The notes under the pieces: generated by a model
Seen by the model: the letters and a program-made list of their open reading frames with translations, nothing else
What the model was told of the DNA's origin: nothing
Databases searched by the model: none
Assembly: GCA_028281045.1 (NCBI GenBank)
Contig: JANQKP010000009.1
Span: 50,508 to 114,507, forward strand
Direction of reading: 5' to 3'
DNA length: 64,000 bases
Origin: Candidatus Altimarinota bacterium
GTDB lineage: Bacteria; Patescibacteriota; Gracilibacteria; UM-FILTER-43-11
In this document: piece after piece, positions 54,587 to 57,227 of the stretch
Layout of the letters: every line of letters starts with the position of its first letter
Position numbering within the stretch: the first letter of the stretch is position 1
Program-made: the position numbers and the translations under genes

Positions 54587-55516
54587 CTAGAGAACTTTAT
54601 CTAAAATATCTTTTAATTTATCGGCTGAGGCTTGTAGCTTTTTTTCTTCTTCAGCCGTTAAATCTACCTTCCACACTTTTTCTACTCCAGAGCGCCCAAT
54701 AACAGCAGGCACCCCTAGGCTAATACCGGTAATGCCATAGTCTTTTCCAGGTTCTGTAGAAATAGGAAGAATACGCTGTTCATCTTGCATAATGGCTTCC
54801 ACAATTTCAGTGGCTACTACTCCAATACCGTAATACGTAGCCTTTTTACGCTTTATGATTTCATAGGCTTTTTCACGGGTGCTTTTTTCAATGGCATCCA
54901 TCTGTTTTTTAGAAAGTAATTCACTTGCTGGCACTGTAGAAACATTCACCGTGCTCCAAGCGGTGAATTCAGTGTCTCCATGTTCTCCAAGCACGTAACC
55001 ATGTACATTGTGCAGGTTTACATCGAGTTCTTCACTAATACTGTGGCGTAATCTTGAGGTGTCTAAACTGGTTCCACTTCCAAGCACTTGGCCACTTGGT
55101 AAATCTATTTCTTTAGAGCCAATGTAAGTAAGAATATCTACAGGATTAGAAATAATAAGCACCACCGTATCTTGTCGTAATTTACCCATACCTTTAATAA
55201 GGCTTCTTAAAATACCCACGTTAGTATTTACAAGGTCTAGCCTGGTTTGCCCAGGTTTTTGGGCTGCTCCTGCAGTAATTACAATAATATCTACATCACC
55301 GCAGTCTTTTAGGGTTCCTTGGCTTACATGTCCGGTTTCGGTTCCAATTAAGGCGTCTGTTAAATCCATTACCTCACCTTCTTCACGTTCTTCACTGGCG
55401 TCTATCATAATAAGTTCTGCAGCAAGGCCTTTAATCATAGCCGCATATGCGAAAGAAGAACCGACCATTCCGGTTCCAACGACAGCGATGCGTGTTCTTT
55501 TAGTTTCTCTTTTCAT
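54587..55516 (-). CDS. ldh: L-lactate dehydrogenase
   Basis: 309 residues. NAD site AVVGTGMVGSSFAYA with Asp in MIDASEE; substrate loop GAAQKPGQTRLDL with Gln where malate dehydrogenases have Arg; ISNPVDILTYI, LDTSRLRHSISEEL and catalytic His in YVLGEHGDTEF. So pyruvate is reduced to lactate, regenerating NAD+ in a fermentative life style. No clear promoter of its own in the 22 bases before the hairpin; it lies directly downstream of the structured RNA region. Confidence 0.95.
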   Translation of the reverse strand: MKRETKRTRIAVVGTGMVGSSFAYAAMIKGLAAELIMIDASEEREEGEVMDLTDALIGTETGHVSQGTLKDCGDVDIIVITAGAAQKPGQTRLDLVNTNVGILRSLIKGMGKLRQDTVVLIISNPVDILTYIGSKEIDLPSGQVLGSGTSLDTSRLRHSISEELDVNLHNVHGYVLGEHGDTEFTAWSTVNVSTVPASELLSKKQMDAIEKSTREKAYEIIKRKKATYYGIGVVATEIVEAIMQDEQRILPISTEPGKDYGITGISLGVPAVIGRSGVEKVWKVDLTAEEEKKLQASADKLKDILDKVL

Positions 55517-55538
55517 GTCTTTAGTTTAACAAAGAAAT

Positions 55539-56133
55539 GGCGGGGGATCTATACGTGTAACGATGCTAATTGTGTCACACAGATCCCCCGCCGGGTTGAA
55601 CGGACAGATAACACGCAGCAAGCTGATGCTATCTGAAACCTGAATGCGGATGAAAATAGGGCGGGACCCTGTTTTATCTTTATCAAGGAGGAGTGGGTCG
55701 CGCAAACCCTATCCCCATCCGCAAAAAATAGGTAGGTCCGAGCGGAACGCATTTGGCAGCCCCCTGCCACGTTAAAATGCTCGAACCTACAAAGAATATG
55801 GCAGGAATGATCGGTTGGCCTCGTACGCGCCAACGAGTTGAAGACCAACTAAGGGATGATCACCCCTGCCAAAAGAAGCAGGCGATGTGAAAGCGGTGGG
55901 GAGTGATACGAAGGGTCGTAAGTAGCCTTCACACCGCCTGCGAAATATTTAGTATGACCGGGGTGGGGATGTAACCCACCAAACTATGTCTCAAGTACGC
56001 TCCATGAAAAACTCAAGAACTTTGGCTAGCCAGTTGGGGAAGGAGGGGGATACTTACCCAAACAACCAAACCCTTTGTGCACTGCAACGTTGGGATAGAC
56101 CGGTCAAAAAAAGACATGTGTAAAAGAACATGG
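55539..56133 (-). ncRNA. Large highly structured RNA, unassigned, about 600 nt
   Basis: No believable protein gene. The region is a chain of strong stems (plus coordinates): 55539-55550 with 55581-55592 (12 bp); 55605-55610 with 55630-55635; 55646-55652 with 55716-55722, containing 55656-55661/55707-55712; 55732-55743 with 55779-55790 (11 of 12), containing 55755-55759/55764-55768; 55800-55805 with 55865-55870; 55878-55884 with 55935-55941, containing 55886-55891/55928-55933; 55962-55967 with 55975-55980; and a long-range 55956-55961 with 56100-56105. Strand is inferred from the minus promoter at 56140-56167. The last stem is followed by ATTTCTTTG and may terminate. No match to RNase P, tmRNA, 6S or SRP motifs that I can see. 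Confidence 0.7.
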
Positions 56134-56139
56134 GTGTTT

Positions 56140-56167
56140 ATTGTAACAAATTTTTTAAATTCGTCAA
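56140..56167 (-). promoter_or_regulatory. Promoter of the structured RNA
   Basis: Minus strand: TTGACG (56167-56162), 16-bp spacer, TACAAT (56145-56140), directly after the proB-like stop. Start near 56133. Confidence 0.75.
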
Positions 56168-57061
56168 CTAACCCGCTTGTCTTGGAAGAATAACAGTTCC
56201 TCGACTGAAGTCTCCATTTGCTGCATCTATAATAGCGCCAGCTTCTTTTTCACTTGTAATAAAGGTGGTAATACCATGATCGCCTGCCAGTCTTGCTGCT
56301 CTTGCCTTACTTCCCAGGCCTCCATTACTGTCGTCACCAGCCTCACTGTAATCGTGCTCTTTAATCCAGCTTTCATCAAGTTCATCGTGACTTAAGCGAT
56401 CAATACGCTCTGCCTTTTCAGCTTCTCTTACCGGGTGTCCCCCCTCAAAGAAGCCTCCTACTTCTGTAATGAATATAAGTAGGTCTGCTCGAGTCTCCAT
56501 GGCCACTTGCACGCTCATCCCATCGTTATCACCATGAGTAGTTTCACTAATTTCCTGACGAGCCTGGGTATCATCTTCATTTCCAATGAATACTTGCCCT
56601 GCTCTCAGGGTGTTATCCATATAAGCATTCGCGTCCTTTCTGGTCATCTCGTCTGAAAAACTACGAGGGGTAATAAGTTTTTGCCCCACCAAAATTCTAG
56701 GAATTAAGTTCGGTTGAGAAAATCCATTTTTCCAAACTTGCATAAGATCTGCTTGTCCGAAACCTGCTGCAAATTGTTTTTTTCTTATGCTATCAAGAGA
56801 ATTCCAAACCTCTTCCAATCTGGAGTGTCCATCGTTATGAGCTTTTTCTTCAGCAATCTGATTCATAATTGCTAGCTCTCCAAGGGGTACTGCCCCAGAA
56901 CTAATAATGCCCATTTCTCTTCTCATTCTGGTAACAAGGGTATGAGCCTCGTATCCCAAGCGATTTACTACGTTCGTATTAATCACCTTAGGACTATCTG
57001 GTCCATTAAGAGTGTGGGTAATAGAGTTACTTCCAATTTTAGGAATAATTCTTTTAAACAT
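56168..57061 (-). CDS. proB: Glutamate 5-kinase-like amino acid kinase
   Basis: 297 residues without a PUA domain. Amino acid kinase motifs: IPKIGSNSITH, GIISSGAVPLGE, IGNEDDTQARQE, THGDNDGMSVQVAMETRADLLIFITEVGGFFEGGHP, GGLGSKARAARLAGDHGI. Closest to ProB, which phosphorylates glutamate on the way to proline. The attenuator with Pro codons just upstream supports this. I start at ATG 57061; an ATG at 57088 lies inside the attenuator stem. No proA in the window. Confidence 0.82.
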   Translation of the reverse strand: MFKRIIPKIGSNSITHTLNGPDSPKVINTNVVNRLGYEAHTLVTRMRREMGIISSGAVPLGELAIMNQIAEEKAHNDGHSRLEEVWNSLDSIRKKQFAAGFGQADLMQVWKNGFSQPNLIPRILVGQKLITPRSFSDEMTRKDANAYMDNTLRAGQVFIGNEDDTQARQEISETTHGDNDGMSVQVAMETRADLLIFITEVGGFFEGGHPVREAEKAERIDRLSHDELDESWIKEHDYSEAGDDSNGGLGSKARAARLAGDHGITTFITSEKEAGAIIDAANGDFSRGTVILPRQAG

Positions 57062-57074
57062 TAGGGAGGCAGTT

Positions 57075-57107
57075 AAAAAATAAGCCACCGGCTGTATCAG
57101 CGGGTGG
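57075..57107 (-). terminator. Attenuator terminator (segments 3:4) before proB
   Basis: On the minus strand CCACCCGCTG (57107-57098) pairs with CAGCCGGTGG (57094-57085), 9 of 10 bp, loop of 3, followed by CTTATTTTTT (to 57075). It ends 14 bases before the proB ATG. Confidence 0.85.
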
Positions 57108-57130
57108 TTTTAAATGTTTACACAAAGAGG

Positions 57131-57151
57131 CCACCCGCGTTAGCGAGGTGG
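57131..57151 (-). promoter_or_regulatory. Attenuator segments 1:2
   Basis: Segment 1 (57151-57143, CCACCTCGC) pairs with segment 2 (57138-57131, GCGGGTGG), 8 bp with one bulge. Segment 2 is also perfectly complementary for 8 bp to segment 3 (57107-57100), giving the competing antiterminator. Confidence 0.8.
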
Positions 57152-57190
57152 AGTTGGAGCAGTAGATGCTTTAAAACTTGTGTAAGTCAT
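57140..57190 (-). CDS. Proline-rich leader peptide (16 residues)
   Basis: ATG 57190 to TAA 57140: MTYTSFKASTAPTPPR. Three of the last five codons are Pro, and they lie in attenuator segment 1, with the stop in the loop before segment 2. This is the classical arrangement for ribosome-mediated attenuation by the cognate amino acid. Confidence 0.75.
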   Translation of the reverse strand: MTYTSFKASTAPTPPR

Positions 57191-57199
57191 AGTACCCCT

Positions 57200-57227
57200 A
57201 TTTTAGCGTAAAATATGGGTTTGTCAA
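57200..57227 (-). promoter_or_regulatory. Promoter of the leader peptide-proB transcript
   Basis: Minus strand: TTGACA (57227-57222), 16-bp spacer, TAAAAT (57205-57200). Start expected a few bases before the leader ATG. Confidence 0.8.

Follow-up and report, generated by a model that had tools for sequence, protein, structure and literature searches.

Large structured RNAs and the gap upstream of ldh

To our knowledge, few bacterial RNAs of at least 500 nt with complex folds have been described; OLE, GOLLD and ROOL have each given rise to a new strand of research. Staphylococcal RNAIII-type RNAs, about 500–600 nt long and built of many stem-loops, use C-rich loops to capture Shine-Dalgarno sequences. 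OLE has many helices in about 600 nt, and its precise biochemical role is unknown (PMC9723947, PMC12054373). GOLLD genes lie in phages and prophages, in many cases close to tRNA islands. For both GOLLD and ROOL, whose function is unknown, covariation supports conserved inter-chain contacts (PMC12286853).

The array of hairpins described here fills the gap between a proB-like gene and ldh in the window, a 64,000-nt stretch (G000:C4:50508-114507) of a 1.2-Mb genome, G000 (Table 1). Among the closest outside relatives of its LDH are those of Candidatus Peregrinibacteria, and our literature search found no report of a large complex-fold RNA from Peregrinibacteria. The array is comparable in size to OLE, GOLLD and ROOL (PMC12286853, PMC9723947) but, by the tests available, is a member of none of them. 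It shares with OLE a length of about 600 nt and many helices, but OLE is well conserved, mostly in Bacillota, and the array has no OLE match at E 10. It likewise shares size class and multi-hairpin build with GOLLD and ROOL, but has no Rfam match, and no phage genes were seen beside it. The preliminary description had taken the stretch to be free of genes, which agrees with our analysis: the 99-aa and 59-aa mechanical ORFs inside 55517-56167 have no Pfam match, and the region holds no credible gene.

Throughout the family a DUF4012 gene neighbours ldh, at short distance and in divergent orientation in most relatives; in G000 the two are separated by the proB-like gene and the array. The best relative of the proB-like kinase in the class is 34% identical, and no such kinase was found beside ldh in the other family loci examined. 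This gene itself probably carries a proline-type transcription attenuator (57075-57227, minus strand), the candidate parts of which are included in Table 1.

Table 1. Features of the array and its neighbours (window coordinates), in the order in which the minus strand is read
Feature	Position	Strand	Details
Candidate attenuator of proB-like gene, promoter	57227-57200	minus	TTGACA-16-TAAAAT
Candidate attenuator, leader	ATG at 57190	minus	16 codons, MTYTSFKASTAPTPPR-stop, Pro codons at the end
Candidate attenuator, hairpin		minus	CCACCTCGC..GCGGGTGG, overlapped by the leader's Pro codons
Candidate attenuator, competing terminator hairpin		minus	ACCACCCGCTGATACAGCCGGTGG-CTTATTTTTT, 3' of hairpin CCACCTCGC..GCGGGTGG
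proB-like amino-acid kinase gene, divergent	56168-57088	minus	NCBIfam proB 106.7 bits, below the cut-off of 186
Putative promoter of the RNA	56140-56167	minus	-35 TTGACG (56167-56162), 16-nt spacer, extended -10 TGtTACAAT (TGTTACAAT)
Weak leader hairpin	56115-56132	minus	5 bp, then UCUUUUUUU
Possible leaderless 25-aa ORF	56054-56131	minus	MFFYTCLFLTGLSQRCSAQRVWLFG; AUG at about +2 of the expected transcript
5' domain	55955-56106	minus	closed by a long-range 7-bp stem, 56100-56106 with 55955-55961
5'-domain hairpin	56021-56070	minus	C-rich apical loop UAUCCCCCUC
5'-domain hairpin	55963-55981	minus	
H2	55878-55941	minus	17-bp stem, 2 G-U pairs, nested 5-bp stem, then UUCUUUU
H2 arms	55878-55894/55925-55941	minus	17 nt
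H3	55799-55871	minus	14-bp stem, tandem G-U pairs, nested helix, then UAUUCUUUG
H3 arms	55799-55812/55858-55871	minus	14 nt
H4	55732-55790	minus	12-bp stem, nested GGCAG-GGGG-CUGCC, then CUAUUUUUU (terminator-like)
H5	55645-55723	minus	16-17-bp stem, GGG/UUU wobble run, nested helix
H5 arms	55645-55661/55707-55723	minus	17 nt
H6	55605-55635	minus	
H7	55539-55592	minus	12-bp GC-rich stem, extended inside, then AUUUCUUUGUU
H7 arms	55539-55550/55581-55592	minus	12 nt, 100% complementary
Extended -10 of ldh	55523-55531	minus	TGTTAAACT; follows the H7 tail, 6 nt before the ldh ATG
ldh	54587-55516	minus	

Strand-specific fold of the array

Folded as minus-strand RNA, the region 55517-56167 reaches -245.9 kcal/mol (z -8.3, with 0 of 20 shuffles as good), the lowest minus-strand z among the 37 large gene-free stretches scored in the genome. 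The plus strand also folds better than its shuffles (-223.6 kcal/mol, z -5.4). In a whole-genome scan of hairpin density the array ranks fifth, and the four regions ahead of it all overlap called ORFs. That the minus-strand RNA has a real, strand-specific fold is also seen in the mismatches of its helices. With wobble pairs forbidden and the cells inside the remaining helices tallied, G-T mismatches on this strand numbered 10 against a single A-C (p 0.017 given composition); every one of the ten G-T cells falls within H2-H7 (10 to 0), and the lone A-C lies in the weak 5' domain. A minus-strand RNA would tolerate G-T cells as G-U pairs and a plus-strand RNA would not, so that the excess is as expected from selection on the minus-strand RNA through G-U wobble, although strand-biased mutation is an alternative cause.

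All elements of the architecture proposed earlier were recovered on the minus strand. Its seven or more minus-strand hairpins correspond to H2-H7 plus those of the 5' domain, the 12-bp stem said to end the element is H7, with perfectly complementary arms, and the long-range pairing was found as a 7-bp stem. The latter is the least certain helix, present in the centroid structure and closing a domain that is weakly predicted. Among the unpaired bases of the array, U and C are abundant and A is scarce. Open UCCC or CUCC motifs number eight, where 15 shuffles average 2.5; the motif was picked after looking at the array, and the overall loop excess of C over G is the same as in shuffles. Several other intergenic stretches of G000 likewise fold better than shuffles.

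Search for known families and relatives

The preliminary description recognised no known family, and none emerged from our searches either. In the window nothing matched Rfam at the gathering score, and for the array region nothing convincing appeared at E values up to 10, including OLE, GOLLD, ROOL and group I and group II introns. Nor is the array RNase P (RF00010) or tmRNA (RF00023), both of which lie elsewhere in G000 (C2:111493-111873 and C1:4906-5350, respectively). Integron attC sites were set aside for want of cassette genes, type III antitoxin repeats for want of tandem sequence repeats, and a CsrB-type sponge for want of a GGA-in-loop pattern.

At the DNA level, neither the 353 genomes of the class nor the 380 of the phylum contained a homologue beyond G000 itself; weak matches in G048 and G159 were rejected as chance, in AT-rich or coding DNA. 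As a yardstick, the same kind of DNA search found the G000 tmRNA in 12 of 17 family genomes. Covariance models of the 5' domain (R1) and of H2-H3 (R2) gave no further match in 353 class genomes and 39 relatives, respectively; both are single-sequence models of limited reach, by which very diverged relatives may be missed. A second R2 match in G000 was discounted, as it overlaps the same site on the opposite strand. No homologue was found in plasmids, phages or viral contigs, and no internal copies exist in G000. The array RNA is thus either restricted to its lineage, a recent acquisition, or changing faster than these searches can follow. The absence of homologues from all sets searched, with no sign of long-term conservation, counts against a stand-alone RNA.

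Most relatives examined have no hairpin array upstream of ldh. Such an array was found in G008, of a different genus in the same family, where it stands with a tRNA-Ser at the equivalent place. It is structured on the ldh strand (z -6.45 vs -2.46), cannot be aligned with the array of G000, and has neither an Rfam match nor a homologue in the family. The test with wobble pairs forbidden gave no counts of G-T or A-C in this case, which neither supports nor opposes selection on an RNA. Since other intergenic stretches of G000 also fold well, the position of both arrays upstream of ldh could be a coincidence. In the G008 locus (L029:2658-2945), the UGA-anticodon tRNA is called Ser yet has no long variable arm. 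Three strand-specific ornate hairpins come immediately after it, then a T run, and ldh lies directly downstream.

A candidate transcription unit and its alternatives

The preliminary description had placed a minus-strand promoter at the start of the element. A promoter-like site, with TG before the -10, begins right after the stop codon of the proB-like gene, and from its position transcription would be expected to start at about 56131-56133. We infer that the array is its own transcription unit and not mainly a cis-leader of ldh, with a minus-strand transcript that would span approximately positions 56132 to 55530. An extended -10 promoter of its own would start the RNA, and H7 with its U-rich tail is the proposed 3' end. 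In this transcript the 5' domain, shut by the long-range stem, would be followed by six rigid GC-rich hairpins in series, connected through short linkers, most of them U-rich. The whole could act as a folded scaffold, in the manner of the large ornate RNAs, in which stems would position pyrimidine-rich loops and linkers for loop-loop pairing or protein docking. The region is probably an orphan large structured ncRNA; that it is a stand-alone, lineage-restricted noncoding RNA of about 590-600 nt is the reading we favour, with somewhat more belief than doubt. Its transcription, termination at H7 and function are deduced from sequence. Counted against it are also the U/C-rich, A-poor unpaired bases, unlike those of RNAs built on A-minor contacts. 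A 600-nt folded RNA kept in a genome of only 1.2 Mb would suggest that the RNA pays its way, and the evidence at hand defines a specific transcript, and its strand, that can be sought.

The hairpins could instead serve to halt transcription between the proB-like gene and ldh, as intrinsic terminators in tandem or as small terminated RNAs, their complex folds having no other role. A tract with six or more U in 8 nt follows each of five hairpins out of eight (the leader hairpin, H2, H3, H4 and H7), while 8-mers with at least five U make up only 9.5% of the region. These tracts could stop transcription of a stand-alone RNA early and were counted against it. H7 and H4 resemble strong terminators. 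However, many terminators elsewhere in G000 are a short compact hairpin with a T run, of which one would suffice, and the promoter just upstream would make a specific transcript. Nested helices and the 5' domain are also left unexplained, and we hold such a terminator series to be unlikely. Less probable still is a decaying inserted element, or a set of inverted repeats, brought in with the proB-like gene between the DUF4012 gene and ldh. The family-wide adjacency of these two genes, with the proB-like gene and the array present there in G000 only, and the absence of homologues of the array would fit such an insertion, as would a 17-nt direct repeat flanking the array (56134-56150 and 55517-55533, 82% identical). 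Yet this repeat coincides with the two promoter-like sites, covering the -10 of the RNA and that of ldh; no other copies of the element exist in G000, and the strand bias of the G-T mismatches argues for selection at the RNA level.

A leader role for ldh, which the preliminary description had allowed, did not hold up well. Such a leader would attenuate ldh by switching between alternative folds, and translation of the 25-aa 5' ORF might drive the switch. The array does lie directly upstream of ldh on the same strand, the neighbouring proB-like gene seems to use an attenuator of this kind, and G008 also has a strand-specific array 5' of ldh. With amino-acid attenuator leaders the array shares a promoter, a short 5' ORF, alternative helices and terminator-like hairpins, but it is several times longer. 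The 5' arm of H5 is 91% complementary over 11 nt to the C-rich loop of the 5' domain, so that the two can pair. Either this pairing or the 25-aa ORF might belong to a switch, or be fortuitous; the ORF, which may itself be a chance occurrence, has no amino-acid codon run. Against a leader stand the absence of the array 5' of ldh in most relatives and the promoter-like extended -10 that ldh has of its own after H7. The 80 nt preceding ldh contain an extended -10 in 6 of 15 relatives too, which makes a stand-alone RNA likelier than a leader. Read-through from the promoter of the RNA into ldh may occur, but that the array serves mainly as a leader seems to us improbable. Regarding the stand-alone RNA we favour, a further step would be to see in it the first member of a new class of large ornate ncRNA in Patescibacteria (Peregrinibacteria), fast-evolving and with unalignable counterparts such as the tRNA-linked array of G008; this we put forward tentatively, as a rather doubtful extension.

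Genome-wide, a -10-like motif lies no more than 20 nt upstream of 41% of the start codons of G000, against 15% of control positions, so that an immediately adjacent promoter, as at ldh, is normal in this genome. Near-leaderless transcription thus looks normal in G000, and widespread leaderless mRNAs are indicated. G is depleted upstream of start codons, and Shine-Dalgarno-like 4-mers precede 9% of starts vs 17% of controls. The array resembles RNAIII in size, stem-loops and open UCCC/CUCC motifs, but an RNAIII-like capture of Shine-Dalgarno sequences is unlikely because G000 shows no Shine-Dalgarno signal.

Elsewhere in G000, the gene-free stretch C3:2100-2644 has a z of about -11 on both strands (8 shuffles) and includes an ornate hairpin of about 100 nt; a scan of the locus that holds it (L116) gave no Rfam match. 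Despite the absent Shine-Dalgarno signal, the 3' end of the 16S rRNA of G000 still reads CACCTCCTTT.
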